A DNA stretch of 49,293 nucleotides, from positions 1 through 49,293 of IMG/VR virus record IMGVR_UViG_3300021368_002262; one strand, given 5' to 3'. Shown here in pieces: positions 11,182 through 44,512 of this stretch. A program made the translations under genes and the position numbers. Positions within the stretch are counted from its first letter, which is position 1. Each line of letters begins with the position of its first letter. The DNA comes from a virus. The notes beneath the pieces were generated by a model that saw nothing but the letters and a program-made list of their open reading frames with translations, was not told where the DNA came from and did no database searches.

Positions 11182-11183
11182 AC

Positions 11184-20549: not shown

Positions 20550-20556
20550 TATTTAT
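20550..20556 (-). promoter_or_regulatory. Putative T4-type late promoter upstream of gp8
   Basis: Minus-strand cacATAAATAaac in the 40-base gap between the 1,383-aa gene and gp8. An AGGAGG lies just after the box, about 19 bases before the gp8 ATG, which is far for a ribosome site. An in-frame TAG five codons upstream rules out an earlier gp8 start. Confidence 0.65.
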
Positions 20557-20561
20557 GTGGG

Positions 20562-24713: not shown

Positions 24714-24716
24714 TTA

Positions 24717-25946: not shown

Positions 25947-25966
25947 TACTCGTAGGAATTTTTAGT

Positions 25967-25974
25967 TATTTATA
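25967..25974 (-). promoter_or_regulatory. Putative T4-type late promoter, full TATAAATA
   Basis: The minus strand reads ccTATAAATAacta, a perfect match to the T4 late consensus. It overlaps the TAA stop of the giant gene and lies about 20 bases before the ATG of the 409-aa gene. Confidence 0.75.
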
Positions 25975-28900
25975 GGATCTCTGGATCGATTACCTCTTCT
26001 CCGTAGAGAGAAAGATCAGGAGCAGTCCAATCATCGGGAACAGATGTTTCCACGACAACTTCAGGATTTTGATATCCAGAACCAGAACTACTCATTTCAA
26101 CACCCGCAACGCCTACCAATGCGCGTACTTGACCATCGAATCCAGAAATGGAGTCAAGTCTTACAGTAGGTCTAGATGTATAGTTGGAACCACCAGCGGT
26201 AACCTGTACTCTATCAATAAATCCACTTGTCAGAATAGCAGATGCTTGACCATCTTGTCCAAAGACAGATCCAAGATAATCGAATGTGATCAAAGAGTTT
26301 GAAGATTCAATCAAAGCAACTTCTCTTTCTGAGGTCTCACCCTGAATCTCGATGAAGTCACCAGATTCAATTGGAGGAATAACAGTTGCTGCCTCAACGT
26401 CTGCTTCAGAACCGACGTAAGAGAATGCAACGAAGGTAGATCCAACACGCGGAATCTCAGAGAAGATGATTCTTGAACCAACAATTTCAAAACCAACACC
26501 AGGTTCCTGAAGAACGCCATTGATAGAAACAATGATGTTATTTTCAGGTCTGATGACGCTCGATTGAACACCATCTGTGAGTGTCAGTGAGTAGAATACG
26601 TCACTACGCTTAAGGTTGAAGGACTGACGCAGAGAGTCAAACTCGAATGAAATATCATCCAGTTGTCTCAACTTACCAACATAGAATCCAGTGAAGGATG
26701 CGCCAGGATCAGGTGCCTCAGTGAATTGAATTTCATCGGAGAATGCAGTAAATGCATTTGTAGCACCAGGAGGTTGTAAAACACCATTGATGAATACCAA
26801 CAGGTGACCTGCGGGGTCAGGGAGGTATTGTGTGCCATTATCTGTGGTGAGTTTGAAGTTAGTTTGAGTACCATCAAATCCCTTGAATGCACGCTTAACT
26901 CTTGCCTTAAGATCAACCTTAGCAAGAATTGCTGCGCGGTATCCATCGAGACCCTTGATAGAATCTTTAACATCAAATGTTCCACGAATATCACTGAGAT
27001 AGATTCTCTTATTGAGACCAACATCACGAATATCTTGTACAAGAGCAGCAGCGGCACCAGCAGTTGTAACCTTGGTAGATACGCTCGCGTATCCAACAGG
27101 GAAACTATTACCTACACCATAATCACCAACCAAATCACCGTTATTGAATGTTCCTAAGACTTGTGAAACATAGATGTAGTTATTATTAAGATCGATTTCA
27201 GTAATGATGCCGTAAGTATTAGTATCTTGGTTTCCGTTAACAACCTTGTAAAGTCTTCCACCCTCAGTGAATACATTCAAGTTATTGACGATAGAAACAC
27301 CCAATCGGATATATCCTTCGGATGCGATTCTTTGACCAACCTGAACATCTAAACCAGCATACTTACTAACATCGAGGTATTGTCTAGACGATTCGGGATA
27401 AACAACTGCTGTCTTCTCGAAAGAACCAAGCAGAGTTTCAGTATCAACTGTGAGAGTACCACCAAGATTGCTAGTTACAGCAGCCTGAGTCTTAAGGAAT
27501 CCTGTAGGTTGAGCGGTTTGACCGCTGGTGTATCCCTTGAATGGAATATTGTTAGTGAATTCACCCTTAAGATCGATGACATGTAATCTATCTTCCTCAG
27601 CACTAATTTGTGCTGTTGTAGAGTTAGTTGCACCCACAAGAGTATCTGTGACTGCCCAAGGACCAGCGGTAACACGAACATCAAGATACTTATAGTTTGC
27701 ATCTTCATGGAATCCATAAACGACGCCAGTAACAGAGGGAGCACCTTGCTTAGTAACTACCTCGCCCATAATGAATGGACCGTCAGTGATAGTACCATCA
27801 ATTCTAAATCTCTTATAAACCTGAACAATCTTTGCCTCATTAAGTGAGATGCTTTCCAGTTCAGCATATGAATCACTATTCAAACCATAAATGTAATCAG
27901 AGGACTGCAGACCTCCAGCAATTCCGACAGGGATATCTCTAATTCCGTATGTCTTAGCAACTAGAGAAATGCCAGTTACCTGAGTCAGAGTTGTGTAGTA
28001 AGAATCAGTATTCAACTGCTCACGAATGACATTCAATCCATAACGAATAAATCGTTGAATTGTTGCCTTAGTATAATCAGATGCAGCAGTGGAATCATAG
28101 AATGAATAGAAACCAGCATTAGTAGAAGGTGAGGTCAGAGTATTGTCAAGTGCTTGACCCATAAATCCTTCAAGAAGGTCAATTGCATACTTCTTAATAT
28201 TGTACTCAGTATCAGCGTAGAAGATTTCACCACTAACTGCGAGATATGGATCAAGCGCACCTTTATTGAGTTTCGCACCCCAGAAGTATGCACCAACAGC
28301 ACCATCTCCAGTCCAGTTGTTTGCACCAGTAGCAGAGTTAACAATAACCGATGCTCTGAGTGTAGAGAAACCAAATCCAAACGTTGTTGTAATATATGCT
28401 CTATACCAACCATTACCATAAGGAACAGCACCATAAGCATCACCTGTTAGACCACCCTGAGGAATGAACAGAGATCCTGTGGTTCCAGCGTTGAGGTTGA
28501 GATCGAAGAAAATATTCTGTTCAGATGCGGTGCCAGGATCAAGAGCAATCTTGAATCTGACAGATTGAGATCCAGCAGATTTGAAGAAGACCGAATATGT
28601 GAATGTTTGGGTCGCATCAATTCCAACAGCACCAGTATCAAATGTTTCGCTACCCGAGTCAAACTTAACTGTATCGGAGTCAAATGTTTCAAATGCAGTT
28701 AAACTATAGTCTCTGAAAGTATCATGAACTCCACCATTATTGTTAGCAGCGTAGAATTTCTCTGCAGTTACTGTAGAATCAGGAGCAGCAATATTATTAT
28801 CAGTAATTAAGAGAGAATCAACACCACCATTGGAATTTACCTGCCAATTAGCAGCGAATGCCTCAGGATTGGTGAATAGGTTTGTTCCAGGAACTTGACC

Positions 28901-31900
28901 TGCAATATTAGATGTAATTGTTCTTGCCTTAGAAAGGATCTTAACGTTTGCAGGAGAAGAGTACCAATCATAAGCAGAACTTACACCGCTAGTAGCAATG
29001 GTTCCTGTTGCAGTAGAAGGAGCAGTCAGAGTGTCCGCTGCTGCCCATGCAGTGCCAGTAAATGCACCGACATAGAGGATCTCATCCTCAGAATCCCATT
29101 CAAGAACAGTTGCAGTTCCACCACCACTAGATGTGACAGTTTCACCAACCGCAAAAGCACCAGTAGAAGCACTTAAAGTAATTGTGTAAGCAGATACGCT
29201 AGTATCTACATCGGTAGTGATGAGATCATGTACGACATCATCAACTAAACCATCAATGAATGTGTCATAAGTCCATGCACCAGTACCAAACTGTGCAGTT
29301 GCCAGAGTGGAGATTTCCTCTCTATAGTAGTTCTTATTGTACAGAAGATTCTTAGCAGCACTTCTTGCTTCATCCTTACCAGGAGCAAGGATAGAAACAG
29401 AGGTGTCAACAAGATCTCTAATTCTGTAGATGACGTTATTAATCGCTGTCGGTGTTAATTGATCACGATATGCAGTCTCCGATGTAAATTGTGCTGCATA
29501 CTGATCACCAGTTACATTGGTAAATTGATCATACAGAAGATTCTGTACTGCTCTCTCAGCAAATGTCTTAAGCAGTTCAATAGAGTAAATGGTAGCGAGC
29601 AATTCATTCTCAATATGATTGATAGTGAGATTTGCATTCAGATACAACTCAATTGCTTGAATAGTGCTATTCGTACCACCAGTTTGAAGATCAGAAATAA
29701 TACTCAAGAGAATCAGTTTGAGATCTCTCTCACAAGTCACACGACCATTTGAACCAGGATATGTTAATGCACTGTAATTTACATTATTCAGAGTATATGT
29801 AAACTCTTGAGTTGTAAGTCCAGTGATTTCCTGAGCGATATAATCTCTGTTGAAATAGATTCTATCAGCAGCAATGTTAAAGTCTTCGTCTGTAGGAGCA
29901 ATAATATCATTGATTGTTGTAATCAATGTATCGATAGCAGACTGTACGTTTGCACAGTTACCACCGTCATTTGTAATACCCCAATCACCAACAATAATTG
30001 CGTTGGTATTAGTTTCGTCAAGATCTCCAGTGATCGCCTGTTTAGCATAATAACCTAAGCGATCATGTGCATAGATTGACTGGAATGCTTGCAGTCTGAT
30101 GTGCTGCAGTTCTCCGTTTGCACCAATATAGAAGTTAGCAGCGGTAACGCTGTTTCTGTTGCCACCATTCTCAATGTCATTAGCAAGTCCATCAAGAATC
30201 AGTCCAAGGTCAGTCTTACAACGAAGAGTTCCATCAGTGCTACCACCATTTTCATTTCTAGGCATATCCTGAGCAAGGTCGGGATATCTAGCAATCATAT
30301 CTGCTGCTGCCTTATCAACGATAGGTGTGCGGTTTGCACGGATTAAACCAGCAGCATCTCTGAATCTGTATTGAGCATCACCATCAATTTGATTGGTATA
30401 TACCAGATCATTTACAGTGTCTTGATAATTAACTGTGAAATCTGTCTCCAAGAATGCATCAACTGTACCACCTTGGAACTCATATGCAGGTTCGACCTTA
30501 GTTACACTTGCAAGGTGATCAACAGGGGAACTGAGATTTGCTTGCTCAAGGGTATCAGTGATGATATCCATCAGGTTACCAACAGTGGTCCAAACATCAG
30601 CACAATCGGCAAGACTGTAATCTAGTTGTGTAACACCATTAGAAGTGGCAGAGACGAAGGTGTGTGCATATTGCTGACCAACAGGTGAAGCACCAACATT
30701 AACGGTGATTGTAGTTGCAGAAACAGCGGTGACAGCAAGAACTGCATTGTAAGCAGGATCAGGATTTCCATCACCAGCAATTGCACGAGGATATGCAGTT
30801 TGACGATCATTACCATCTTGAGTGCAAGTAAATGTAAGACTCTCTGTAGCAAGAGAAACACGAGAAGCAGTTGTCAATGAATGACTTCCAATCGTGAGTA
30901 CCATAACACCAGTTGCGGCGTCATAAGTTGCACCAGTTACGGTAAATTGATTCAGAGAAGATGCAGTGGAATCAGTGATTGTTGCATCAGTTTTCTGCGT
31001 CAGTCCATGAGAACCAGTAACAGTCCAAAGAGTATTTGTAATAATATACTGTGCAATTTCTTTTGCTTTATCGAATGCCCAGACAGTCTCTACTTGCTCA
31101 CCATCAACGTGATTGATTGTGATAGGTGTTGTAGTTCTATTGACATACAGTGCTGCTGTATCCCAAATATGACTATTGCTACCATTACGAAGATCTTCAA
31201 CCAATTCTTCAATAACATCAACGATGTCATCTTCACAATTTACATTTCCACCAGGAATTGCCAATGAAGGATATTGCTGAGTCAATAAGTGAACAGTTTC
31301 TTTTGCAATAAAGTCTTTGTTGGAAAGAAGAAGATTTGCAGCATCATAATATCTTTGACTCTTTGCAGCAAATCCAGCAGGTGCGCCTGTAACTCTAGAG
31401 GTTGCAAGGATTGCATCATTGTTGAATTCTTCACCCTTAGTAAATCCTTCAGCACCAGACCAATCATCAACATAAGTTTGACCTTCTGTACCATCAAAGT
31501 GAAGAAGTAATTTGGTATTTGAATCACCTTGGAAGATGCCTGCAGGTGCAGTGAATGCACCAGTATAACGAGCATTAGTAGAAACACGGAACTCATCGAC
31601 ATAACCAGGGAATACTGCACCAGCGTTATAAGTAGCGCCAATTCTAATTGGTTTCGTGGTTCCATAGTTGGAAGCATCAGAGTAATCACTACCCTCTTGA
31701 GTTCCATTAAGGAACATTTTGGTTGTAGTGCCACTTCTGCTGATAGCAACGTGATACCAAGTTCCAGCAACTAAGTTTGTTGTACCAGTGATTGTAACAC
31801 TACCATTATTATAATATTTCAGATTCGCACCATCGAGATACAGATACGGTGACAGTTCAGTTGCTGCTGTTCTGAAGTCAAAGAGTGTTTTACTTCCTGC

Positions 31901-34900
31901 AGCAACAGAGAGAGGTTTAATCCAAAGTTCAACTGTAAATGCACCCGTTCCAAAACCAAATTCACTAGAGGTAGCATAACTAATATACTCATCAACAGGA
32001 ACTGCTCCAACGTTAACAGTAACTGTTGTAGAAGTAGTTGCGGTAATAGTAAGTGCCTGACCAGATGCAGGATCAGTAGAACGAGGATATGTTTTATTAG
32101 AGGTATTATTATCCTGATCACAAGTAAATGTAATACCATTGTCTGCAATGGTTACTTTATTACTAGTAGTCAGAGAGTGAGTTCCAATATTGAGAACTAA
32201 GAGTCCAGAGAGAGGATCATAAGTTGTTCCTGCTGCTGCAGTAAATGTTCCACTTGCACCAACAGATGCAGTGATTGCATTAGCAACACCACTAACAAAA
32301 GTATGAGGAGCAACGCCAGGAGAAAGTGCTAGACATGCGGTTCCATATCTCTCATTGTAAGTATTGAGAGCAGCTCCAGCAGCAAAAGTTGCTGTATGAT
32401 AGTCTGCACCAGTAGATTGAGTTCTACCAATCTTACCAAGGTAGATAGTTCTTCTTGCTTGGTTATAACCAATAACTTCTGCCTTAGTATCAGTGGTTCT
32501 GATTGTCTGACCAGCAGCAAAGAATCCGCTGCCAACACTATCCTTAAATGTCAGTCTTCTAACCTTGCCGCCTTCATTAGCGAAGAAATCTGCACTAGAA
32601 CTACCATACTCAACCTTATAATTGCGAATAAATTCATCCTGTTGGAGAGCACCAGATGCAGTGTCGTAAGGAATTACAAAGTTGTTGATAAGTTCATTTG
32701 ACGGGAACTTGACATCAAATGCAGTTGCATTATCAGTGAAATCAACAATACTTACGGTTGATTTAGAAATATCATCTAAAACGATGTTGGGATAAGTTTG
32801 AGATGTAATTCTGTTGAACAACAGACCAAAGAAGGAAGAACCTTCAGAGATGTTAACCTGTCCGATAAACTCTTGAGTTACAGGATCTTGATATGCTGCA
32901 GTAGATGTAATACGAGCAACAACACCAGAAGATGCACCAATAATAACATCATTAAGTTCAATATCATAAAGACCAGGTGTAGATTGATATGTACCTGCAG
33001 TTTTACTAAGAGTTAATGCATTTGTAACAGAAATCTGTGTTCCATAGATCGGAATATCTTCCTGTTGTGCTGCTGCTTGAGTCCCATCCTCACCTCTAGT
33101 TACACCCAGTGTTGTGGATTGAGAACCATTACTAATAGTATTAACAGTGAAGATTTCAGATCCAAACTGATATTTTTCACCTTGAACAAATGTGCCCGCA
33201 GGAACAGGTGCGTCTGCACCAGCAGCAGTAGTTACAACTTCAAAACTAGTGGTTGCAGCACCAATGGTATAGCGTAAATCTGCAACAGGAGTTTCCTGCC
33301 CTCTTTCGAGGTTAATCTGTTCAACTTTAGCAGTGTCACCTGTGAGATTAGTAACAGTTTCACCGAAAGAGAACAGTCCAATATTGTTAATCGCAGTATT
33401 AGTTGCCAAGTTTGCAGAGAATCCAGTTGCACCGACTGTGCAAAGTTCTCCAATAATGAAGGTTCCTTCGGTCACATAACCTTGGATATTGTCACCAACA
33501 ACCTTAGTAACTGTCAGTCTCGCTGTAGAAGAAACACCAACCAAAGTATTACCTACAAGTGGGAAAATACCACTTTGATTATTAAATGTAAGATCAACAA
33601 TATTAATCTGATTTACAGTTACATTGACATACTTAACACTTGCAGGAGGAGAGGGAGGTTCGCTGAATACAATAGAATCTCCTTGAATCTCAAACGAAGT
33701 ATTTGGAGTTTGTGCAACACCATTCAGAACAATCATTAACTGATTAGCGTTTGCAACAACATTATTCCCAGCAACAGTTAGAGGGAATGAAATTCTTTCG
33801 CCATCAAACAGGTTAGAAATATCATCAACACGCTGTACAACAGAGGTAAGAATATTCTCCGAAGAAGTCAGTCTCTTTTGACGGAACAGAACTTCAGTAT
33901 TATTGAACTCTGAATAAATGGGTTCAACCAGAGAGAAACTCTGAATGTTGGGTACTGTTGCCTGCCTTGCAAGTTCAACGGATTTAGTTAATTCAAAATC
34001 AGTCTCTTTGTTAGGAATAGAACCATATTCATTCAGATTCAACTCACCAAAGACTTTAAATGATGCAGGGTGAACATTCTTGATTAAGATATCCTTCCAA
34101 TCATCAATAGAGACAGAAGACTTAACTGCATATGAGAAGTCTTGATAATAGTAAGAGTCTTGAATCTTTTGAATAATCTCAGAAGGCTTACCAACATCAT
34201 CAATAAATTGACCTGTAGTCTTAGTAATAGAACCAATCTCCAAGACACCTTTAGCAATCTTGAGATCGCTAATAATACCAGAAGACTTAGAAATTACACC
34301 AGTTACTCTTTGACCACTTGCAAAATCTCCAGTGTAATCAACAATCTTAAGAATTCTAGGACCAACTTGCCAACCACTATTAGTAGAAACATAACCAGTA
34401 GCAGTTGCAGTCTCAAGACTGTCACCTTGATAAACTAACTCACCCTCAAGGAAAGTTGAAGTAATGACATTTGCGGTCGCTGCAGCACCAAAAGATTCAG
34501 TCAGCAAAGACTGTCTGCCTGTACCAGTGTTAGCAAATGTAATAGCATCACCAAGTTCTGCGTTTGCAGCGGTAATCGCAAGTTTTAATTGATCATCTTC
34601 GAGAGAGTTTGCACTACCTGTAATTGCAAAATAAGTTGTAGTGCTATTCAATCTACCCAGTGCTCCTGCTGCCAGAGGGAAGTCAGCGCCATCTCCAGTA
34701 TCGGTTACAGAAAGCGTAACTTGAGCACCATTAGTAATTCCATGTGGGAATGCAAACTGCAGAAGACCCAAGTCAAGGTTAACAACATAGTTGAAAGAAG
34801 ACTTAAGTGCAACTGTGGGTTCAGAAGAATATCCCGAACCAGGATCTTTTACAATGATCTGATCAATACGACCATTTCTAATTGTTGCCTCAGCAACGGC

Positions 34901-37900
34901 ATTCTGACCACCGCCACCTGTGATAACAACAGCAGGTGCTTGAGAATAACCAGATCCAGGGTTAGTAACTGTAATACTATCAAGAATACTGGTAGAAGTT
35001 AACTGTGCGTTGATTGGGAACGTAATCTCTGGACGCAAAGTGTAGTCATGAGGATAATCATAACCAAAGTTGTTATTCTTCAGTTTCTTGATTTTACCAA
35101 CTTTGTCACCCTTTGTGAAAATAGATGCTCCAGATCCAAACGGAGGAATAACAACCTGAAGTTCTGCACCCGATCCAGTTAAACCTGCACCAAGAATACC
35201 TTCAATTGCTTCGATATCAATTACTGCTGTTGTGTAACCTTTACCAGGAGAGGTAACAACAACTTCTTGAATCTGACCAGGAATTGATACACCTTCAGAG
35301 TCTGTTCCATCAGCAACGGTGATAGAAACCAAACCACCCTCACCATCTCCACCAATAGGAACACTATTGTAAGTTCCTACTGCATACTCAGTACCAGGTT
35401 CATTAATAGCAACTCTTTCAATTTTACGAGAAGATTGAATACCTGTTACAACAGGAAGTCTAGAGTAGAAACCACCAGCATTGACAATCCTGATATCATT
35501 GATAGGACCAACTGCCTTTGTAGAGGAGGTGCTATAAGTGGTTTGAGAAACGGTAGCAACACCTTCGGGTTCGTTAGCCAATAAGAACTTGAAGATATTA
35601 TCACCAGTAGTAATTGTTCCTCCAGAGGTATCTGTGATAGTAAATGTTCCGACATAAGGAGAATCAACAATATCGAGATAACTAGAAGATGCGATCGGAG
35701 AATCATCACCAGTTCTAGAAGGATCGAAATAATATGAGATATTTGTTACAATGTCACGATCTACTTTCAGTTTCACAGTAGGTGTAGGTTGCCCTTCTCC
35801 AGTCAAACCAGGTGTTCCAATTCTTTCAATAGAGTTGAAGGAATATTCAAGTTTGAACAGATTATCTTTAGAGAATGACAGGTTTGCACCAGCCATAGAG
35901 GAGTGACTAAGGTCGAACAGATACTGGTGACCATAGTACATCTTCAAGACAGGAGACTTGACAAACACACTAACATTTGCTGCAGAGGTTGCAGGTGCAG
36001 AAACTGCTGTCTGAGGTAGTTTGTATGTAAATTCTTTAGAACTTACTACACGATCAACAATAAATGAACCGTCATACTCATCGTAAGTTACACTATTAAC
36101 TTCTTGAGAGGGATTACCATCAACATTAACGTTTTCACCAACACTCAGATAATGCTTATCACCAGTGATAACATACACTTCATCAGTATTGGCAACAGCA
36201 GTACATTGAAGAGTTTTACTCAGAGTAGATACTAAAGTTATTTTCAGAACGCCAGTAAGATTTGTAATCTGTGCAGTAGTATATGCAGCATTGAAAGAAA
36301 TATCAGATGATGAGATGTTAACAACAGATCCAACGATAAAGGTCGATGATCCAGAAACTTCTTCAATTTTAACGCTATAAAAATCGGTGTTAAATGGTTT
36401 GAACTTAGCGAAGGAATCAAGATTCTGACCGCCACCTGCATTATATGTTCCATCTAAATTGTACTTGTCTAGATCGATATTAAAGGTGCCAGGTGTAGTA
36501 TTATTAACCTTCTCAAAGATATAATCAACGATATCATTAACATCATTAGGAACAGGACCCGTGATCCCATAAGTGCTTTGCTCAGCAAACTGTTCGGTAA
36601 CTAAATTACCAGTGTTCAGATCATCAGACCAGGCGTTATTATTAACAGCAACATATACTTTATTATTAGTATTATCAACTTTTAAGATATAACCGCTATT
36701 AACAAAAGCACCCGAAGTATTATTCAAACGTAACTTTGCACCAACTGAGAAATTGAATGCTTGGTTGATAGTAAGTTCCTGAACATTGTCAATCTTGACA
36801 GTGTTAGTAACCTTCATATAATATCTGTTCTTAACAACAGCATTTACTTTCAGTTTCTGAGATCCAGGAGAAGGAACTGTAGATGTTCTAGAACTCCACT
36901 CATCAACAGCATAAGTAAGTGTCTCAGTGTCCTGAGCCAAAGTAATTGTCGCATCATCAAAGTCTAAAGTCTGCAGACCAGCGGTTCCCAGAGCGAGTCC
37001 AGTGTTGGTTACTGTAAGCGTAGATCCAGTGACAGCAGTGACAGCAGTTCTGGCAAAACCAACTCCAGTGTTAGTCTTAACACCTTGATCTCCAAGTCTT
37101 GCAGCATCTGAATTTTTATCAGTCTTAAGACCCCAACCAATATAATCAATATAATCGTAACGGTTCAAATTAGTTGTAAACCAAGCATCATCTGACCAAT
37201 CGTAAGCAAGAGCAAATCCACCAGAAGTGGGAAGTGCAGAAACATCACTAGGAACTGTAGGAGTAACTGCTCTGTTTCTAAGTCTAATATTGTCGAAGTA
37301 TCCTTGGAACTGTTCGTTCTTACGGAACTGACCAAGAGTTGTGCTTCTACCAGGAATATTACCAAAGAACAGGTCTTTATTTCCGAGACTAGTGTTTGCA
37401 ATAGTACCAGTAAATACCTGAATACCATTTACATATCCAGTAAAGGTATTACCAGACTTTTTAACTGCAACAAACTGCCAACTGTTATCGGCAAACATAG
37501 TTGTCGATACTGACTGTAATGCACTACCTGCAGAATTAAGTGCTGTCGTATTGTTTGTAACAACCAGTTCCAGTTTGCCACTAGAAAGATCATAGTACAA
37601 CCAGAGACCACCAGTAGAAACGGTAGCATCACCGATTGCCATCAATGTGACTTGAGTTTGACTGTGAGTATTGTACTCAGAACCATTCTTATAGACCATG
37701 AATTCACAGGTCCAGTCGTCATTCAACTTAGTTCCAAGTTGTGCTGCAGTAATTTTAATGTTTGCATTTTCCCAGGCAGAAGGAGATGCAGTCTGATATG
37801 CAGGCATATATGCCGCATTTGCAAGATACTGAATTGCACCACCAGTGCCAGTAAATGTGCCAGTATAATGAGCACAAGTATCAGTAGTTTCACCTGAAGC

Positions 37901-40900
37901 AAAGGCAAAGATAAATTCATTTCGGTTCCAAGAGGTTTGACCGAATGTATAAACGTCACCAGAATTATCAACAGCTAAAGCATGTGCTGAAATGCCTTCA
38001 ATATTATTTTTGTTGAATTCGTTATTAGTATGCGACTTTAACTTACCATCATAACCAATTTTGACAGTATCTACAGTTTTATAAGTGGTTGTATTATCAG
38101 TTCTAGTAAATGCAACGTTCAAATCACCAAAAATATCAATTACAGAATTTTGTGCGACTTGAATAGACTGTCCAGAGGGTGCGACATATCTGTAGTTCCA
38201 AAGAAGATCACCAGTGGTATCAAACTTACCAACCCAGAAACTATCTTTAGTTGTATTGTCGGACTTAAGTCTCAAAGTAGCGGCAACATAGCACTCACTA
38301 AATTCGTCGCTAACCAAACTCACATCCATGAAAGAATACAAGGAATTATTGATTTCCTTAATCCACTCAATAGTAATTACACTAGTTCCGATTAGTGCCT
38401 TACCAAAAGAAACTCTAACATCGTTAGAACTGCTGCTATCTGCAGTCTCTAAAACAAAGTATACTGCATCATCAAGAACAATTAGATCAAGAAGTTTTTC
38501 GGACTTAGCAGCAGTTGCAATTTTTCTCTTGGCAGCAAAATTACCAGTAGAATCAATAGATGCAATGAAAGCATCATAAGGATTTGCCGAGTTTGTATTT
38601 GTATAACCACCAATAATATAACGAGTATCAGAATATCTCTTAATTGCAGTTACTTTATCTGCACGAGTAGAACCAGAGATACCAGCATAACCTTTTTGGA
38701 AAGTTAATGTGGCACTAAGACCATCAGCAGCCTGTGTATATTTTGCCAGAATAATGTCTGGATTATATGCAGCGAGAACTGGTGCATTGGGTTTGTTCTC
38801 ACCAACTACCCAAACATTGTTTCCACTAACATCCAACTTAAGAAACTCTGTATAAGTTTCACCTGTTTGACTTTCTAAAGTTCTTTCCCACTCTTTTACA
38901 CCAAGAGCAGAGAATTTGGATACAAATGCAACTTCATTACTGTTAGCATCTAAAGTTTTACCACAGAAGAAAATTTCTTTATCATCATTTACAATTACAT
39001 CATTAACTTTGACGTAGTTTTGATTCGCAATTGTTGAGACATAATAATCTGCCTTTTTAAACACCTGAGGATGACTCAGAATAACTCTAGGATTTTTAGT
39101 GTATCCAGAACCAGAGTTAATAATGTTAACTCTCTCAATAGATCCAACAGAAGTTACTACTGCTTCTAATTTAGCAGATTCACCATCACCATCAATAATA
39201 ATTGTAGGAGGAATCTCTTCATCATAACCAGATCCAGTTTGAGTAATTACAACTTCTTCAATACCTTTTAATTGACGAACAATAAACTGTTTATTGGTGT
39301 TATCCATAACAGGATTATAGTCCATGTAAACCGTGTCACCTGCAGCAATGTTGTGAGGTACTTGGGTCTGAACTACACCATAGTTTTTATCATTTACCGT
39401 TTCAAAACTATATGAGGTAACAGTTTCACCTTTAATTCTAGAAACACGAGCGGATACACCAATACCTTCAGTATCAGTATTATCAAACGTCAAGATATCA
39501 TTTACCTGATAGTTTTTACCAGGGTTTTCAACAATAAATCCAGTTACAGCAGCATCTTCAAATTTAGTGATTGTCTCAACTTCAATATCAACTTTAGAGT
39601 CAAATCTAACTTTGGGGAAATAGTCAAAGAGTTGCAAAGGAGACTCTTCAAACAATTGATCGGGATCATCAATTTCATCTTGAGAGATAACACCGTCTCT
39701 ATTCTCGTCTTCTACATCAAACAGAAGAATATCACCACCCTCAGTAGTTAAAGCGTTTGTAGATGCATTAGGCGCTCTCTCAACGTCAATATCAACGTTC
39801 TCATAAGGATCCCTATAACGAACAACACCTGTAGGAATATTTTGCTGTACTGCATCTTTGTTGAGATTCCAAGAATCAACAACCGAGTTAAAGTCAGGAC
39901 CTAAAACATACGGGAATACAGAATTGCCAGCTTCAGTGGTGTCAATGGTAACAAAGTAACAATATCTACCTTCTGGAAAATCAGGTGTTTTGCAAAAACG
40001 ACCGTTATATTGGTCTAAATCACCAAGACCGAAAACATACTCATAATCATTAACAAATCTACCTGCTGCTTCCTCAGTCAGAAGAGGTCCTGCAGTTCTA
40101 ACAGGATATGGATTAGTAGTTTCATTATAAACAAGATTTGTCTTCAGACGATATGAAGTATCCAGTCTAGAAATTTCAGAAGATTGATCGGTAGGATCGG
40201 TATATCCATAAGGACCATAAATCGGATTACCATCAAACGCCCAACCGATGATAGGAGAGTGTGTTAACTGATCATCTTGTTCAAGAATTGCACCAGATGT
40301 ATTTTCAAATAAATTATCACCAAGGATATATCTCAGTCTTTGTGGATTGGAAATGTGTGCATATTCACCACCATATTGATTATTAAATCCAGCAAAAACA
40401 CCACCTTTAGCAGAATCAACTGTTTCTGTTTCTTGTAAATTGTAAGTCCATTGGAATACATTTGAACTGAAGGTTGCATTAGAACCAACAGAAGTCAGAT
40501 TAATTAAAGTAGTCCCTTGAACATAGTTGATACCTCTGTTAAGAATTTCAATACCAGTAACTCTACCAGCATTTTCACCATCAGTATCAATAGTTGCACG
40601 AGCAACAGCACCAAAACCATCTCCTTGAATTGTAATTTCTGGAGCAGTGGTATAACCACTACCAGCAGAAATGATAGCGATAGAAATAATTCTTCCGTTA
40701 CTAACAATTGCCTGAGCAACAGCACCAGAACCAGAACTAAGAGAAACAGTTGGTTTAGACGTATAAGATGCACCACCTGCATCTACAGAAATAGACTTGA
40801 TAGGACCACGAACAGATGCAGTTGCAGTTGCACCAGTTCCACCGCCACCAACAATGGTAATAGACGGTTGTGAGGTGTATCCAGTACCACCAGAATTCAT

Positions 40901-43900
40901 CAGAATTCTAGAAACAACACCCTTAGTGATAATAGCAGTTGCAGCAGCACCAGATCCACCACCACCAACAATAGAGACTAGAGGAGATGAAGTATATCCA
41001 GATCCACCAGCATCAACATTGATTGATGTGATAGAACCATCGACGACAACGCTTGCTGCTGCTCCAGATCCACCGCCACCAGCGATAGTAATAGTTGGAG
41101 GAGATGCTGCGTCATAGTCGGAACCAGCATTAGTAATATCAATAGATGTTACTGGACCAAATGTCTTAGTTACACTCGACTTATAAGACCAAATAGAAAC
41201 ACCATTGACCCATGTACCAATAGGACCAGGAGAGATAGCATTTTTGGTAGAAATTGTTTGAGGAACCAGTGGGAATCTGTTTAATTTACGCTGGTTACCA
41301 GGTAACAGAGCGGATCCAGGGAAAGGACCAATCTTATAGTTGGGGATACCTGTAGATGCAACATAAACATAGTTGTCGTTAAAGAACGAGTTCTGTATGT
41401 TTGTTGTGTAAGGACCAATAGAATTAAGTACAGCACTATTGTCCGACTTACCCTTATTCAAGTCAACTGATACTAAGATATTACCCTGAGGAATAACTGT
41501 AGCAGGAGCAGGAAGTTGATATTGGAATACAGTTTCACTATCTCTAGAAGTGACTAAGAAAGATCCATTATAGATGATGGGGTTTGCACCATAAACTGTA
41601 ACCTGATCTCCAACCAAGAGACCATGTGGATTAGAACAAGTGATTGTTGCAAAACGATTATCAATACCACCGAAAGTCACACTAGCAACTTCAATCAGTT
41701 TTTTAACATTGTACAACCAGGTTCTGAGTTCTGGTTTTACTGATGTACCACCAAGTTTAGATACTGATAATTTATCACCAGCAAGATAGTAAGATCCAGT
41801 GTCAGTAAGAGTTGTTTGTTGTGCATCAACAATACCAACAACATTCAATACTACTTCCTGTGCAGTTCCTTTGTTAATAAAGACAGTAAAATTAGATGCT
41901 ACAGGTGTAGCAGAATCCCAGTCTTCTACAATACCATTTGCTGAACGAGTACATTCAATAAACTGGTTCAGAGATTTTTCTTTATATTGAACTACTTCAG
42001 TTCCACCAATTACAAACTCACCATTTCTTTCTGGCCAACCAATAGTAGAGTCAACTGTAATAACATTATCTTCAGTTCCAAGAGGTTCTGCCAGTTTTGT
42101 TTTATAAGGAACTGTGAAAGAACCTTGAATAGTTTCTTCAGACAGAACAAGTTCAAAGATCTCAACATCAGAAGTTTTAATTGAGATATAGTTCTCAACC
42201 AACGCACTCGCTGCTTTAGTATTAGGATCTGCAATATCTGCTTCTTGAGTCAGCAAACCATCTTTAATATTTGTAGGATCACCACTTACCAGTGTTGCAC
42301 GAAGAATTGTATCAATAGACCAAGTTGCAGAAGATGGTTTAATGATTTGATCTTTAGGATACGAAATACTGATCTGCTCACCATACAGAAGTTTAAACAG
42401 ATATGCAACACTAAAAGAAGTACCCTTTGCAGAGTAAAAATCTTTTACAGACTTGATTGCTGTACGAACATCAATCTTCTTATAATCAAGTTCAGGAACG
42501 TCAGGAAGGAACTGTTCTGTATATTTGTCTAAAAGTCTCTTGACAAATAATGCGTCAAGACATTTTACATTAGTATTAATTGCAGCGGCAGCAGCAGTAG
42601 TATTATTGGAGAACACCGCATTGCCGCTTTCAGTATAAGAAGTAATACCACTAGCAGCTCTAGCACAACCAATAAATTGTGCTTTAGTATATCCTTTACC
42701 AGGTTTGTTAATTGTGAAACCTGTAATTTCGTTCAAACCAATCTCAACAGATGCTTCCGCCTGAGGAGGTGCTTGAATAACAACTTGTGGAGGATTGGCA
42801 GCACTATATCCACTACCAAAGTTATTAACATTGATATCAGTAATTCTACCATTAAAGATGGATGCTGTTGCAGTTGCACCAGTACCACCATTAGTTCTAT
42901 TATCGACAATGTATACAGAAGGTACATCATCATAACCACTACCACCACTCAGTAGTTCAATGCCAATAACACGTCCGTCTCCATCGACTTGTGTCTGAAG
43001 AACTTGAGCACCAGTGGGATCAACTACAGCAATCCTAGGAACAGTCGTATAACCTTGACCAGCGTTCAAAATGTTAATACTGGTAATCACACCATTTGTA
43101 ATAACTGCCTGAAGATTTGCCCTGATAGGATTAGTACCCAGAGGTTCATCAACGTAAATGGTGGGTGCAGTAGTATATCCCTGACCACCGTTAGTGATAG
43201 GAATAGTTCCAGTAATAGAACCGTTACTAATAGTCGGAGTGCCTAGTGTAGCGCCACCAGGCTGCTTGAATGTTACTCTAGGGGTAAAAGTATATCCACT
43301 ACCAGAATTAGTAACTTCAATCCCAGAAATAACACCATTAGTTACAGTTGCTTTGAGTTCAGCAATTTTAGAACCAGCAACGGTGGGATTTTCAATAACT
43401 ACAGTTGGAGGGTTGGTATCACTATAACCTTTACCACCATCCAGAAGAGTAGAAGATTTGATACCATTTACAAGAGCAGTTGCACTTGCACCGCCACCAA
43501 CACCAAAAGAGTTAATAGAAACTTTAGGTGGATATTGGAACTTGTATCCAGTTCCATTTTCGTTGACGGAGATAGAAGTTAACTCACCATCATTATTGAC
43601 ACGAGCATATCCAAGTGCATTAGATCCAAAAGAAGGAATCGGTGCCTCAATAGAATAAACTGATAAAAATCTTCCATTCAGAGGTGCTGTGTTAAAAATA
43701 AACACATCACCATCAAGGAAGTAATCAACCTTAGGAATTAAAAGTTTATTGTCATATACTGCTACTACATACTCATCAACAATGGGTTCATATTTCACCC
43801 CATTTCTGGTGAGTTTAAATTCTGTTTTACCTTCACCAAAGGAATTCGAGATATTATCAACACCGACGATGGTATTCTCAATAAAACCACTTAGGAAAGT

Positions 43901-44512
43901 AATATATGTCGCTGAATTGTCATCAGATGCAATTCTGGTTCTGGGTGCAGTAGTGAAGACAATATTTGTTCCAGAAACAGTGTAATCTGTTCCAGGAATC
44001 AAAACCTCTCCATAAACGCTAACAATCAGGTGTTGTGCGCTAGGAGGTCCAATCGGATTAGATTGTGAAGTCAAGGGGAAGGAACGAGTCGTTCCATCAA
44101 AACTATCAATGATTTGAGCAAGAGTAGTCCATTTTAATTTTACTTGCTCGTATGAAATACCAGGACTCAGAGCAATGTTAGGAGATGAAGTAGTGCTTTC
44201 ATAGTAAATTACTTCATCACCAATCAGTATAGAACCATTAGTGTCCAGAAACTGATCAACAGATTCTACCACAATAGTTTCACTTTCTGCAGAAATCGCT
44301 TCTACTACAGAAGTGGAACCGTCAAGAATTCCAATATCCAGTTTATCAATATCCAGGTATTGAAGGAAATTATTGACAATGTTCTGTCCAAGACCTGTTT
44401 TTTCTTGCGACCTGTAATAATATTCAATAAACTTATTAAACAGGGGATATTCAGACCCAATGAAGTCTGGTGTCTGACTCGCAATAGACTGAGAAACCTT
44501 ATTAATATTCAT
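25970..44512 (-). CDS. 6,180-aa giant mosaic baseplate/adhesin protein (gp7 position)
   Basis: A single open frame of 18.5 kb between gp6 and gp8 territory, where T4 has gene 7. Core-like segments: residues 15-60 (FIGSEYPLFNKFIEYYYRSQ...FLQYLDIDKLD), 645-720 (SVKDFYSAKGTSFSVAYLFK, LLYGEQISISYP) and 3437-3490 (YYYQDFSYAVKSSVSIDDWK...HPASFKVFGELNL). These resemble conserved stretches of large wedge proteins in other T4-like phages. Between them: GSGY clusters (about 316-611, 1121-1336, 3007-3238), a YHYH domain (about 1400-1540), an EF-hand loop (1602-1613), a propeller-like region (1817-2205), LamG-like domains (about 2205-2415 and 4170-4350) and four helical repeats (about 4380-5100). Five 'FINGVLQPPG'-type modules sit at the start, middle and end. 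There is no signal peptide or membrane helix. It is probably a structural scaffold and host-binding protein of the baseplate. Confidence 0.85.
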   Translation of the reverse strand: MNINKVSQSIASQTPDFIGSEYPLFNKFIEYYYRSQEKTGLGQNIVNNFLQYLDIDKLDIGILDGSTSVVEAISAESETIVVESVDQFLDTNGSILIGDEVIYYESTTSSPNIALSPGISYEQVKLKWTTLAQIIDSFDGTTRSFPLTSQSNPIGPPSAQHLIVSVYGEVLIPGTDYTVSGTNIVFTTAPRTRIASDDNSATYITFLSGFIENTIVGVDNISNSFGEGKTEFKLTRNGVKYEPIVDEYVVAVYDNKLLIPKVDYFLDGDVFIFNTAPLNGRFLSVYSIEAPIPSFGSNALGYARVNNDGELTSISVNENGTGYKFQYPPKVSINSFGVGGGASATALVNGIKSSTLLDGGKGYSDTNPPTVVIENPTVAGSKIAELKATVTNGVISGIEVTNSGSGYTFTPRVTFKQPGGATLGTPTISNGSITGTIPITNGGQGYTTAPTIYVDEPLGTNPIRANLQAVITNGVITSINILNAGQGYTTVPRIAVVDPTGAQVLQTQVDGDGRVIGIELLSGGSGYDDVPSVYIVDNRTNGGTGATATASIFNGRITDINVNNFGSGYSAANPPQVVIQAPPQAEASVEIGLNEITGFTINKPGKGYTKAQFIGCARAASGITSYTESGNAVFSNNTTAAAAAINTNVKCLDALFVKRLLDKYTEQFLPDVPELDYKKIDVRTAIKSVKDFYSAKGTSFSVAYLFKLLYGEQISISYPKDQIIKPSSATWSIDTILRATLVSGDPTNIKDGLLTQEADIADPNTKAASALVENYISIKTSDVEIFELVLSEETIQGSFTVPYKTKLAEPLGTEDNVITVDSTIGWPERNGEFVIGGTEVVQYKEKSLNQFIECTRSANGIVEDWDSATPVASNFTVFINKGTAQEVVLNVVGIVDAQQTTLTDTGSYYLAGDKLSVSKLGGTSVKPELRTWLYNVKKLIEVASVTFGGIDNRFATITCSNPHGLLVGDQVTVYGANPIIYNGSFLVTSRDSETVFQYQLPAPATVIPQGNILVSVDLNKGKSDNSAVLNSIGPYTTNIQNSFFNDNYVYVASTGIPNYKIGPFPGSALLPGNQRKLNRFPLVPQTISTKNAISPGPIGTWVNGVSIWSYKSSVTKTFGPVTSIDITNAGSDYDAASPPTITIAGGGGSGAAASVVVDGSITSINVDAGGSGYTSSPLVSIVGGGGSGAAATAIITKGVVSRILMNSGGTGYTSQPSITIVGGGGTGATATASVRGPIKSISVDAGGASYTSKPTVSLSSGSGAVAQAIVSNGRIISIAIISAGSGYTTAPEITIQGDGFGAVARATIDTDGENAGRVTGIEILNRGINYVQGTTLINLTSVGSNATFSSNVFQWTYNLQETETVDSAKGGVFAGFNNQYGGEYAHISNPQRLRYILGDNLFENTSGAILEQDDQLTHSPIIGWAFDGNPIYGPYGYTDPTDQSSEISRLDTSYRLKTNLVYNETTNPYPVRTAGPLLTEEAAGRFVNDYEYVFGLGDLDQYNGRFCKTPDFPEGRYCYFVTIDTTEAGNSVFPYVLGPDFNSVVDSWNLNKDAVQQNIPTGVVRYRDPYENVDIDVERAPNASTNALTTEGGDILLFDVEDENRDGVISQDEIDDPDQLFEESPLQLFDYFPKVRFDSKVDIEVETITKFEDAAVTGFIVENPGKNYQVNDILTFDNTDTEGIGVSARVSRIKGETVTSYSFETVNDKNYGVVQTQVPHNIAAGDTVYMDYNPVMDNTNKQFIVRQLKGIEEVVITQTGSGYDEEIPPTIIIDGDGESAKLEAVVTSVGSIERVNIINSGSGYTKNPRVILSHPQVFKKADYYVSTIANQNYVKVNDVIVNDDKEIFFCGKTLDANSNEVAFVSKFSALGVKEWERTLESQTGETYTEFLKLDVSGNNVWVVGENKPNAPVLAAYNPDIILAKYTQAADGLSATLTFQKGYAGISGSTRADKVTAIKRYSDTRYIIGGYTNTNSANPYDAFIASIDSTGNFAAKRKIATAAKSEKLLDLIVLDDAVYFVLETADSSSSNDVRVSFGKALIGTSVITIEWIKEINNSLYSFMDVSLVSDEFSECYVAATLRLKSDNTTKDSFWVGKFDTTGDLLWNYRYVAPSGQSIQVAQNSVIDIFGDLNVAFTRTDNTTTYKTVDTVKIGYDGKLKSHTNNEFNKNNIEGISAHALAVDNSGDVYTFGQTSWNRNEFIFAFASGETTDTCAHYTGTFTGTGGAIQYLANAAYMPAYQTASPSAWENANIKITAAQLGTKLNDDWTCEFMVYKNGSEYNTHSQTQVTLMAIGDATVSTGGLWLYYDLSSGKLELVVTNNTTALNSAGSALQSVSTTMFADNSWQFVAVKKSGNTFTGYVNGIQVFTGTIANTSLGNKDLFFGNIPGRSTTLGQFRKNEQFQGYFDNIRLRNRAVTPTVPSDVSALPTSGGFALAYDWSDDAWFTTNLNRYDYIDYIGWGLKTDKNSDAARLGDQGVKTNTGVGFARTAVTAVTGSTLTVTNTGLALGTAGLQTLDFDDATITLAQDTETLTYAVDEWSSRTSTVPSPGSQKLKVNAVVKNRYYMKVTNTVKIDNVQELTINQAFNFSVGAKLRLNNTSGAFVNSGYILKVDNTNNKVYVAVNNNAWSDDLNTGNLVTEQFAEQSTYGITGPVPNDVNDIVDYIFEKVNNTTPGTFNIDLDKYNLDGTYNAGGGQNLDSFAKFKPFNTDFYSVKIEEVSGSSTFIVGSVVNISSSDISFNAAYTTAQITNLTGVLKITLVSTLSKTLQCTAVANTDEVYVITGDKHYLSVGENVNVDGNPSQEVNSVTYDEYDGSFIVDRVVSSKEFTYKLPQTAVSAPATSAANVSVFVKSPVLKMYYGHQYLFDLSHSSMAGANLSFSKDNLFKLEYSFNSIERIGTPGLTGEGQPTPTVKLKVDRDIVTNISYYFDPSRTGDDSPIASSSYLDIVDSPYVGTFTITDTSGGTITTGDNIFKFLLANEPEGVATVSQTTYSTSSTKAVGPINDIRIVNAGGFYSRLPVVTGIQSSRKIERVAINEPGTEYAVGTYNSVPIGGDGEGGLVSITVADGTDSEGVSIPGQIQEVVVTSPGKGYTTAVIDIEAIEGILGAGLTGSGAELQVVIPPFGSGASIFTKGDKVGKIKKLKNNNFGYDYPHDYTLRPEITFPINAQLTSTSILDSITVTNPGSGYSQAPAVVITGGGGQNAVAEATIRNGRIDQIIVKDPGSGYSSEPTVALKSSFNYVVNLDLGLLQFAFPHGITNGAQVTLSVTDTGDGADFPLAAGALGRLNSTTTYFAITGSANSLEDDQLKLAITAANAELGDAITFANTGTGRQSLLTESFGAAATANVITSTFLEGELVYQGDSLETATATGYVSTNSGWQVGPRILKIVDYTGDFASGQRVTGVISKSSGIISDLKIAKGVLEIGSITKTTGQFIDDVGKPSEIIQKIQDSYYYQDFSYAVKSSVSIDDWKDILIKNVHPASFKVFGELNLNEYGSIPNKETDFELTKSVELARQATVPNIQSFSLVEPIYSEFNNTEVLFRQKRLTSSENILTSVVQRVDDISNLFDGERISFPLTVAGNNVVANANQLMIVLNGVAQTPNTSFEIQGDSIVFSEPPSPPASVKYVNVTVNQINIVDLTFNNQSGIFPLVGNTLVGVSSTARLTVTKVVGDNIQGYVTEGTFIIGELCTVGATGFSANLATNTAINNIGLFSFGETVTNLTGDTAKVEQINLERGQETPVADLRYTIGAATTSFEVVTTAAGADAPVPAGTFVQGEKYQFGSEIFTVNTISNGSQSTTLGVTRGEDGTQAAAQQEDIPIYGTQISVTNALTLSKTAGTYQSTPGLYDIELNDVIIGASSGVVARITSTAAYQDPVTQEFIGQVNISEGSSFFGLLFNRITSQTYPNIVLDDISKSTVSIVDFTDNATAFDVKFPSNELINNFVIPYDTASGALQQDEFIRNYKVEYGSSSADFFANEGGKVRRLTFKDSVGSGFFAAGQTIRTTDTKAEVIGYNQARRTIYLGKIGRTQSTGADYHTATFAAGAALNTYNERYGTACLALSPGVAPHTFVSGVANAITASVGASGTFTAAAGTTYDPLSGLLVLNIGTHSLTTSNKVTIADNGITFTCDQDNNTSNKTYPRSTDPASGQALTITATTSTTVTVNVGAVPVDEYISYATSSEFGFGTGAFTVELWIKPLSVAAGSKTLFDFRTAATELSPYLYLDGANLKYYNNGSVTITGTTNLVAGTWYHVAISRSGTTTKMFLNGTQEGSDYSDASNYGTTKPIRIGATYNAGAVFPGYVDEFRVSTNARYTGAFTAPAGIFQGDSNTKLLLHFDGTEGQTYVDDWSGAEGFTKGEEFNNDAILATSRVTGAPAGFAAKSQRYYDAANLLLSNKDFIAKETVHLLTQQYPSLAIPGGNVNCEDDIVDVIEELVEDLRNGSNSHIWDTAALYVNRTTTPITINHVDGEQVETVWAFDKAKEIAQYIITNTLWTVTGSHGLTQKTDATITDSTASSLNQFTVTGATYDAATGVMVLTIGSHSLTTASRVSLATESLTFTCTQDGNDRQTAYPRAIAGDGNPDPAYNAVLAVTAVSATTITVNVGASPVGQQYAHTFVSATSNGVTQLDYSLADCADVWTTVGNLMDIITDTLEQANLSSPVDHLASVTKVEPAYEFQGGTVDAFLETDFTVNYQDTVNDLVYTNQIDGDAQYRFRDAAGLIRANRTPIVDKAAADMIARYPDLAQDMPRNENGGSTDGTLRCKTDLGLILDGLANDIENGGNRNSVTAANFYIGANGELQHIRLQAFQSIYAHDRLGYYAKQAITGDLDETNTNAIIVGDWGITNDGGNCANVQSAIDTLITTINDIIAPTDEDFNIAADRIYFNRDYIAQEITGLTTQEFTYTLNNVNYSALTYPGSNGRVTCERDLKLILLSIISDLQTGGTNSTIQAIELYLNANLTINHIENELLATIYSIELLKTFAERAVQNLLYDQFTNVTGDQYAAQFTSETAYRDQLTPTAINNVIYRIRDLVDTSVSILAPGKDEARSAAKNLLYNKNYYREEISTLATAQFGTGAWTYDTFIDGLVDDVVHDLITTDVDTSVSAYTITLSASTGAFAVGETVTSSGGGTATVLEWDSEDEILYVGAFTGTAWAAADTLTAPSTATGTIATSGVSSAYDWYSSPANVKILSKARTITSNIAGQVPGTNLFTNPEAFAANWQVNSNGGVDSLLITDNNIAAPDSTVTAEKFYAANNNGGVHDTFRDYSLTAFETFDSDTVKFDSGSETFDTGAVGIDATQTFTYSVFFKSAGSQSVRFKIALDPGTASEQNIFFDLNLNAGTTGSLFIPQGGLTGDAYGAVPYGNGWYRAYITTTFGFGFSTLRASVIVNSATGANNWTGDGAVGAYFWGAKLNKGALDPYLAVSGEIFYADTEYNIKKYAIDLLEGFMGQALDNTLTSPSTNAGFYSFYDSTAASDYTKATIQRFIRYGLNVIREQLNTDSYYTTLTQVTGISLVAKTYGIRDIPVGIAGGLQSSDYIYGLNSDSYAELESISLNEAKIVQVYKRFRIDGTITDGPFIMGEVVTKQGAPSVTGVVYGFHEDANYKYLDVRVTAGPWAVTDTLVGATNSTTAQISAEEDRLHVIDLKGEFTNNIPFKGYTSGQTAQPTGFLKTQAAVTSNLGGTLTVDTETLLGSFEKTAVVYPESSRQYLDVSKYAGLDVQVGQRIASEGYIRLGVSIVNNLNVFTEGGRLYKVVNGNQDTNTYGIITEIDLNNNYIYVSQVLGTFNNGDLVGDYGVGNSFPVGYASVSTKVTTAGAAAALVQDIRDVGLNKRIYLSDIRGTFDVKDSIKGLDGYRAAILAKVDLKARVKRAFKGFDGTQTNFKLTTDNGTQYLPDPAGHLLVFINGVLQPPGATNAFTAFSDEIQFTEAPDPGASFTGFYVGKLRQLDDISFEFDSLRQSFNLKRSDVFYSLTLTDGVQSSVIRPENNIIVSINGVLQEPGVGFEIVGSRIIFSEIPRVGSTFVAFSYVGSEADVEAATVIPPIESGDFIEIQGETSEREVALIESSNSLITFDYLGSVFGQDGQASAILTSGFIDRVQVTAGGSNYTSRPTVRLDSISGFDGQVRALVGVAGVEMSSSGSGYQNPEVVVETSVPDDWTAPDLSLYGEEVIDPEIL
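29200..31385 (-). repeat. Four divergent helical repeats in the giant protein
   Basis: Each copy starts with a helix of the form AAxLLxxNKxFIxxE: YYDAANLLLSNKDFIAKE (about 31370), FRDAAGLIRANRTPIVDK (about 30365), NIAADRIYFNRDYIAQE (about 29880), RSAAKNLLYNKNYYREE (about 29370). The first three also carry a conserved Cys before an acidic helix (NCEDDIVDVIEEL, RCKTDLGLILDGL, TCERDLKLILLSI); copy 4 lacks the Cys. This is the only strongly alpha-helical part of an otherwise beta-rich protein. Confidence 0.8.
30665..30945 (-). repeat. Duplicated 'HSLTT...TFTC-QD...YPR...VNVG' beta module, copy B
   Basis: Encodes GATYDAATGVMVLTIGSHSL, then LTFTCTQDGNDRQTAYPRA and TITVNVGASPVG. It matches copy A at 31990-32240 nearly element by element. 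It lies between helical repeats 1 and 2. Confidence 0.8.
31465..31995 (-). other. LamG-like (concanavalin-type) domain 2 of the giant protein
   Basis: Residues about 4170-4350: FGFGTGAFTVELWIKPL, then LVAGTWYHVAISRSGTTTKM, FLNGTQEG, PGYVDEFRVSTNARYTG and LLLHFDG. This is the classic strand order of Laminin_G_3 lectin-like jelly rolls, often carbohydrate binding. Confidence 0.85.
31990..32240 (-). repeat. Duplicated beta module, copy A
   Basis: Encodes GTTYDPLSGLLVLNIGTHSL, then ITFTCDQDNNTSNKTYPRS and TVTVNVGAVPVD. It directly precedes LamG-like domain 2. Copy B lies about 1.3 kb further along the gene. Confidence 0.8.
33600..33820 (-). repeat. Middle copy of the 'xINGVxQxPG' beta module
   Basis: Encodes LFDGERISFPLTV, MIVLNGVAQTPNTSFEIQG and SIVFSEPPSP. 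It is one of five copies; the others lie near 43880-44115, 43650-43850, 26680-26900 and 26400-26620. All share an F-x-L-T strand, a hydrophobic-(N/G)-x-V-x-x-P turn and an I-x-F-x-x-x-P strand. Confidence 0.75.
34830..35510 (-). repeat. GxGY beta-repeat cluster 3 of the giant protein
   Basis: Five units: GGFYSRLPVV, GTEYAVGTYN, GKGYTTAVID, GSGYSQAPAV and GSGYSSEPTV. Two of them are followed by a Gly-rich turn of GGGGQNA type. The gp8 protein has closely similar units. Confidence 0.75.
35690..35965 (-). other. Degenerate cupredoxin-like segment in the giant protein
   Basis: Residues about 2850-2940: YYGHQYLFDLSHSSMAGANL, then IERIGTPGLTGEGQP and NISYYFDPSRTGDDSP. The layout resembles the cupredoxin-like units elsewhere in the window, but the Cys-His-Met loop is lost. 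Confidence 0.45.
37260..37890 (-). other. LamG-like domain 1 of the giant protein
   Basis: Residues about 2205-2415: DDWTCEFMVYKNGS, GGLWLYYDLSSGKLELVV, DNSWQFVAVKKSGNTFTGYV, NGIQVFTGTI and GYFDNIRLRNRA. This is a Laminin_G_3-type jelly roll that directly follows the propeller-like region. Confidence 0.8.
37890..39060 (-). other. Propeller-like repeat region of the giant protein
   Basis: Residues about 1817-2205. Blade-like repeats alternate hydrophobic strands with 'xIFFCGKT', 'VWVVGEN', 'YIIGGYTN', 'VYFVLET', 'CYVAATL' and 'VYTFGQT'-type motifs, each preceded by a strand ending in D(T/S)xG or similar (FDTTGDLLWNYRY, IDSTGNFAAKRK). This fits a six- or seven-bladed SBBP/kelch-like beta-propeller. 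Confidence 0.6.
39674..39709 (-). other. Canonical EF-hand Ca2+-binding loop
   Basis: Residues 1602-1613 of the giant protein read DENRDGVISQDE, the full 12-residue EF-hand loop with D1, N3, D5, G6, I8, S9 and E12. Only one loop is present, as in dockerin or calerythrin-like single motifs of bacterial adhesins. Confidence 0.8.
39880..40280 (-). other. YHYH-family domain of the giant protein
   Basis: Residues about 1410-1545: SPIIGWAFDGNPIYGPYGYT, SYRLKTN, LDQYNGRFCKTPDFPEGRYC and PYVLGPDFN. The family's name motif (YHYH) is replaced by YCYF. Unlike the copy in the 1,383-aa protein, this one is not interrupted. Confidence 0.75.
40505..41150 (-). repeat. GxGY beta-repeat cluster 2 of the giant protein
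   Basis: Six units with a period of about 37 residues: GSDYDAASPP, GSGYTSSPLV, GTGYTSQPSI, GASYTSKPTV, GSGYTTAPEI and GINYVQ. Most are followed by VGGGGSGAAATA-like Gly-rich turns. The DNA is locally repetitive (ccaccaccacc runs). Confidence 0.85.
42680..43565 (-). repeat. GxGY beta-repeat cluster 1 of the giant protein
   Basis: Eight units: GTGYKFQYPP, GKGYSDTNPP, GSGYTFTPRV, GQGYTTAPTI, GQGYTTVPRI, GSGYDDVPSV, GSGYSAANPP and GKGYTKAQFI. The repeat lies between the two N-terminal core segments of the protein. Confidence 0.85.

Follow-up and report, generated by a model that had tools for sequence, protein, structure and literature searches.

A 661-kDa probable gp7 baseplate-wedge protein with a split core and phycobiliprotein-like tail modules in a T4-like marine cyanophage

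The window analysed here is the 49,293-base IMG/VR virus record IMGVR_UViG_3300021368_002262, which contains no ambiguous bases (N). Its minus strand, on which the giant gene and all its parts described below lie, carries a block of baseplate genes in the following order: the wedge genes gp25 (46552..46971; PF04965, phrog_261) and gp6 (44522..46552; PF21379, phrog_219), a giant gene (25970..44512), a gp9/10-like connector (24717..25946; PF07880, phrog_677), a baseplate-wedge gene assigned to phrog_708 (20562..24713), the wedge gene gp8 (18989..20521; PF09215, phrog_438), and a VrlC-type baseplate protein gene with DUF4815 (11652..18989), which occupies the same position as the genes annotated as VrlC in P-HM2 and S-SM2. 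The giant gene lies directly after gp6, the position of gp7 in T4-type phages, and the same slot order is found around its counterparts in S-MbCM100, P-SSM4 and other phages. The original prediction, made from the sequence alone, had placed it in a gp7 slot between gp6 and the gp8 block; this placement holds, with the gp9/10-like and phrog_708 genes preceding gp8. Database names for the giant protein conflict, being "gp7" in P-SSM4, "virion structural protein" in S-MbCM100 and "gp8" in S-MbCM6. The S-MbCM100 record names a different protein gp7 (phrog_719, upstream of PAAR; locus 13603-16632), the window counterpart of which is found at 47880-49292, while relatives apply the name gp7 to the giant. 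Elsewhere in the window, positions 5109-11105 encode a structural protein of 1,998 aa that has a major tropism determinant N-terminal domain; the gene includes a tandem repeat of 132 bp at 6076-6371.

In the six-frame listing, the giant frame runs from an ATG start to a single terminal stop with zero internal stops, and its product of 6,180 aa has a computed mass of 660.9 kDa and a pI of 4.5. The frame occupies 37.6% of the window. These values are close to the approximately 650 kDa and 38% estimated beforehand, and the length of about 1,030 aa quoted then for T4 gp7 is also accurate (1,032 aa). Similar repeats are present inside the giant gene, and an assembly artefact in which such repeats fused separate genes into one frame might be suspected. 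However, a second IMG/VR contig covers the entire gene at 99.95% DNA identity over 19,496 bp without gaps. In addition, 80 metagenomic loci were read around the second gp7 core segment (see below), and 13 of them, the second contig included, hold complete ORFs of 6,064-6,606 aa; the open-ended loci that were examined keep an open frame as far as their stored DNA reaches on each open side. Isolate genomes carry the same gene. Moreover, dN/dS against four relatives ranges from 0.03 to 0.39 across all 500-codon bins, and such values, below 0.4 in every bin, indicate that the whole frame is under uniform purifying selection. With this contig, the dozen further full-length ORFs and the dN/dS values, a frameshift or misassembly, which had been named among the findings that would refute the prediction, was looked for and is practically excluded, and the chance that an artefact created the frame is negligible. 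The giant ORF is confirmed as a real, single, uninterrupted gene, as had been proposed.

The identity of the gene is supported by its match to PHROG 701 and to phage records, and the PHROG match also speaks against a frame that is open by chance. The 6,136-aa PHROG 701 model is matched at positions 1-3204 and up to 6135 (E 0), and 485 phage records, overwhelmingly of Synechococcus and Prochlorococcus phages, match the N-terminal 2,000 aa, over which the nearest isolates among the matches listed are approximately 84% identical. A comparison with marine myovirus proteins had been proposed together with the prediction, and this end-to-end match is its outcome. The closest known system is PHROG 701 ("virion structural protein"), or gp7 "baseplate wedge initiator", of the Kyanoviridae (S-MbCM100, P-SSM4, S-SZBM1_208), with which the giant shares end-to-end homology, gene order and size class. 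Homologs at the same place in isolates measure 6,064 aa in S-MbCM100, 7,312 aa in P-SSM4 (annotated gp7), 7,351 aa in P-TIM40 and 8,573 aa in P-RSM6, the frame of the last also being open, and smaller relatives form a graded series of 767, 896, 1,007, 1,937, 2,514, 3,048, 4,156, 4,454 and 5,195 aa below the 6,180 aa of the window protein. The expectation that the protein would be exceptional, among the largest phage structural proteins, is not sustained, as larger relatives are already annotated in P-SSM4, P-TIM40 and P-RSM6. Neither is a giant virion protein something new, since the homolog S-SZBM1_208, of 6,619 aa and 724.20 kDa, has been detected in virions by mass spectrometry, with 71 peptides and 13.5% coverage (PMC9146016, Table 1, 2022). 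The 1,937-aa homolog gp122 of S-CREM2 was also found in virions, with 91 unique peptides (PMC10665884). The assignment as a virion protein is thus borne out by homology to proteins found in virions. The giant is a normal-sized member of a family present in hundreds of T4-like cyanophages, of a known kind and not the largest; that it would dominate the baseplate, as had been suggested, is plausible by mass.

Several lines of evidence, the slot among them, point to this protein being gp7. Residues 665-723 (42344..42520) match positions 163-221 of PF23786, "Phage baseplate wedge subunit", with 28.8 bits (cut-off, 27 bits). A second segment, residues 3127-3493 (34034..35134), contains a VHPxx motif and corresponds to residues 1585-1921 of S-CREM2 gp122 and 567-673 of the compact gp7 of Melnitz; within it, residues 3449-3490 match PF23786 positions 235-280 weakly (16.1 bits, under the cut-off). 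The two halves of the gp7 core are therefore about 14 positions apart in PF23786 and about 2,730 residues apart in the giant. A VHPxG motif is also seen in a T4-like gp7. When the window N-terminus and 35 relatives were aligned by hhalign with six T4-group gp7s, residues 687-718 fell on T4 residues 729-760 (probability 91.6, E 8.3e-7), and PHROG 26741 matches both the giant and T4 gp7 in an identical register. This direct match is short, covering 32 columns, and the N-terminal giant profile against the PDB gave a T4-like gp7 as its best match, at a weak E of 0.087. AlphaFold modelling of residues 1-810 gave a model of low mean confidence, with a core pLDDT below 50, and a fold search of this model against the PDB returned no reliable match.

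Compact relatives connect the giant to T4 gp7. Melnitz (Methylophilales phage, 896 aa), phiM12 (Sinorhizobium phage, 1,007 aa) and Cr30 (Caulobacter phage, 767 aa) contain both core halves in order, but lack the cyanophage inserts and tail. The Melnitz protein shares four collinear blocks with the giant (profile match E 3.7e-14). Its predicted model, which is poor overall (mean pLDDT 54), has T4 gp7 (5iv5; E 4.1e-5, probability 1.00) and KP1 gp7 (9f4a) as its two best fold matches in the PDB. The original assignment, based on position, now has sequence-profile evidence and, via this compact relative, fold evidence. T4 gp7 itself (PDB 5hx2, 5iv5) resembles the giant in the core motif, in the collinear second motif and in the position after gp6; in contrast, about 640 residues precede the shared core in T4 gp7, whereas the giant begins with the core itself, broken up by large inserts, and continues after it as a tail of 2.7 kaa. 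The T4-specific Pfam domains Gp7_helical, Gp7_5th and Gp7_6th, present in T4 gp7, are absent from the giant and from the phiM12, Cr30 and Melnitz gp7s, so the giant is filed as a gp7 homolog outside the T4 gp7 subfamily. With NCBIfam TIGR02242, phiM12 and Melnitz were matched below the cut-off and the giant was not matched.

Cyanophages and pelagimyophages were said in 2020 to lack gp7 and to carry VrlC in its stead (PMC7029224). Accordingly, the giant could be an unrelated structural protein occupying the slot while VrlC took over the role of gp7, and a BLAST search of the giant against T4 gp7 indeed gave no match. Against this stand the profile matches, the shared register and the fold of the compact relative, and also the gp7 of phiM12, which bridges the two families by matching both the T4 gp7 PHROG (8.9e-7) and PHROG 701 (6.9e-19). 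Besides, phiM12 has a VrlC-like gene as well as gp7; the two coexist, with no either/or between them, and VrlC is hence no replacement for gp7. The unrelated-protein explanation is consequently regarded as very improbable. The preferred reading, with a probability of roughly 0.8, is a single 661-kDa chain that serves as the baseplate-wedge subunit gp7 in a T4-like marine cyanophage (Kyanoviridae). On this reading the gp7 of cyanophages lies inside the giant, with a split core, and the published view that these phages lack gp7 and have VrlC in its place is probably wrong.

The gp7 core extends over residues 1-3493, with inserts of about 530, 350 and 2,060 aa, and is followed by a tail of 2,687 aa; it is nearly whole in the relatives of 767-1,007 aa. 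S-CREM2 gp122 (1,937 aa) maps to residues 1-106, 647-860, 1043-1542 and 3127-3493 of the giant, and ends there. The N-terminal core segment, residues 1-110 (44183..44512), is kept in S-CREM2 gp122 (1-109), Melnitz (10-140) and S-PM2. It is followed by the first insert, residues 111-640 (42593..44182), which has no counterpart at that position in the 896-aa Melnitz protein. Eight beta repeats of the GxGY type are found here at residues 320-608, with further GxGY repeats elsewhere, and residues 300-610 are predicted by AlphaFold to be beta-rich (pLDDT approximately 70-90). Residues 1043-1542 (39887..41386), common to S-CREM2 gp122, comprise beta repeats and a YHYH domain (residues 1355-1526, E 8.4e-32). 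The large insert, residues 1543-3126 (35135..39886), is without a counterpart in S-CREM2 and includes a first laminin-G/ConA-like domain at residues 2252-2418 (37259..37759; PF13385, E 5.7e-9).

The C-terminal extension, residues 3494-6180 (25973..34033), is missing from S-CREM2 gp122. It carries a second laminin-G/ConA-like domain at residues 4178-4315 (31568..31981; PF13385, E 1.4e-20) and, at residues 5276-5420 (28253..28687), a segment resembling the head spike fibre of RcGTA (PDB 6tb9; phmmer E 3e-9). When both halves of the giant were compared with the PDB by phmmer, only RcGTA spike and S-layer matches were obtained, in the C-terminal half. Residues 4,000-4,660 (window positions around 30500-32500) are hypervariable among relatives, and the length differences from other PHROG 701 members lie mainly in this region. 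A module of about 85 aa accounts for part of these differences through its copy number: relatives have from 0 to 16 HMM matches to it, and the window giant has two, at residues 4086-4171 (32000..32257) and 4518-4610 (30683..30961).

The tail also contains three copies of a helical module of about 115 aa that resembles phycobiliproteins: module 1 at residues 4380-4491 (31040..31375), with Cys4426 in the motif CEDD; module 2 at residues 4708-4827 (30032..30391), with Cys4765 in CKTD; and module 3 at residues 4869-4989 (29546..29908), with Cys4927 in CERD. The PF00502 score on the C-terminal half of the giant is 24.2 bits for the whole fragment (cut-off 22.2), with single stretches below the cut-off. 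A profile built from 15 module copies matched phycocyanin alpha among PDB sequences with an E of 7.1e-7, and all 60 of its listed PDB matches are phycobiliproteins or related fluorescent proteins; the same alignment reversed, used as a control, gave zero matches. A second profile, made independently from 10 copies in other phage genes, also found phycocyanin (E 5.7e-6), one designed repeat protein being the sole unrelated top match. Some single copies are matched by PF00502 (best E 3.7e-4), and by no other family at E 0.01.

In the PDB alignment, the C-x-x-D of the modules falls on the KCARD/KCLRD motif of phycobiliproteins, the Cys and Asp of which we take to serve as the bilin-attachment site. 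This C-x-x-D is present in the three window copies. Among 56 non-redundant copies, both residues occur in 34, C only in 1, D only in 6 and neither in 15, a co-occurrence with a Fisher p of 4.6e-8 if relatedness is ignored. An invariant bilin Cys was rejected, as 21 of the 56 copies have no Cys. The module region is matched in 376 records, all of them phages of cyanobacteria or marine virus records. On the basis of these sequence comparisons, the modules are very probably homologous to phycobiliproteins. The likeness concerns the tail modules only and consists of an alignment of about 60 aa that includes the Cys-x-x-Asp site; the modules differ in being about 115 aa long, compared with 155 in the PF00502 model, in being embedded in a virion protein, and in the absence of the Cys from some copies in relatives. 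The split gp7 core and these phycobiliprotein-like modules are what is new here.

It is conceivable, if unlikely, that cyanophage tail proteins, the giant gp7 among them, contain captured host phycobiliprotein domains that still bind bilin at Cys-x-x-Asp. In phages with a CpeT-type lyase, their own tail modules would then be a candidate substrate of CpeT. Phage-encoded CpeT is usually explained as serving the host antennae. Gasper et al. reportedly characterised the CpeT of a cyanophage biochemically in 2017. In the seven Synechococcus phages examined (S-PM2, Syn1, S-CAM3, S-RIM32, S-RSM4, ACG-2014j and ACG-2014e), another giant tail gene, of approximately 3,700-4,500 aa and with 5-11 modules, is preceded 0.29-1.79 kb upstream by cpeT, and in each set at least four modules have C-x-x-D, often as K-C-x-R-D; these phages share synteny and are hence not independent cases. 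Against this reading, cpeT in P-HM1 has no module-bearing tail gene adjoining it, and many module copies are without the Cys. With cpeT matched in 70 records and the module region in 376, the record counts also give no support to the idea that the modules generally need a phage CpeT. As a separate observation on S-PM2, its record places 16 tRNA features inside S-PM2p218 (15974-27313), an open ORF of 3,779 aa in which ARAGORN found zero tRNAs; the tRNA coordinates of AJ630128.1 look displaced.

With respect to function, the gp7 core would act as in T4 and, together with gp6 and gp25, build the wedge of the tail baseplate. The inserts and the tail, that is, the beta repeats, the two laminin-G/ConA-like domains, the YHYH domain, the RcGTA-spike-like segment and the phycobiliprotein-like modules, may project outward, where they would make contacts at the periphery, bind surface glycans or recognise the host. 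Since g10, g11 and g12 have been reported missing from T4-like cyanophages (PMC2984593), the giant may stand in for gp10, gp11 and gp12 and supply their functions. Alternatively, the giant might be translated whole and then cut, with the gp7 part (residues 1 to about 3500) remaining in the wedge and the C-terminal remainder forming a fibre or adhesin of its own. The core ends near residue 3493, where S-CREM2 gp122 stops, and in DSL-LC02 (locus 5524-17370) a 2,514-aa gp7 gene stops at the core end and is followed by a separate gene of 1,432 aa, the product of which resembles residues 5926-6090. This arrangement suggests, from the gene sequences, either a gene fusion in the lineage of the giant or a split in DSL-LC02. 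However, neither a protease nor a cleavage signal was found for the giant, and mass spectrometry of S-SZBM1 reported its homolog as one 724-kDa entry, although at 13.5% coverage without a peptide map this entry is compatible with cleavage. Cutting after translation is accordingly thought unlikely, and the single 661-kDa chain is preferred.

For this group of cyanophages, the size of the giant ORF is by itself ordinary. The presence of gp7 within the giant, with a split core, would mean that the cyanophage baseplate can be modelled on that of T4. The phycobiliprotein-like modules would be an unexpected case of a virus reusing a light-harvesting protein of its host, here in the tail. If they bind bilin, they would also point to a substrate on which the CpeT proteins encoded by phages could act.
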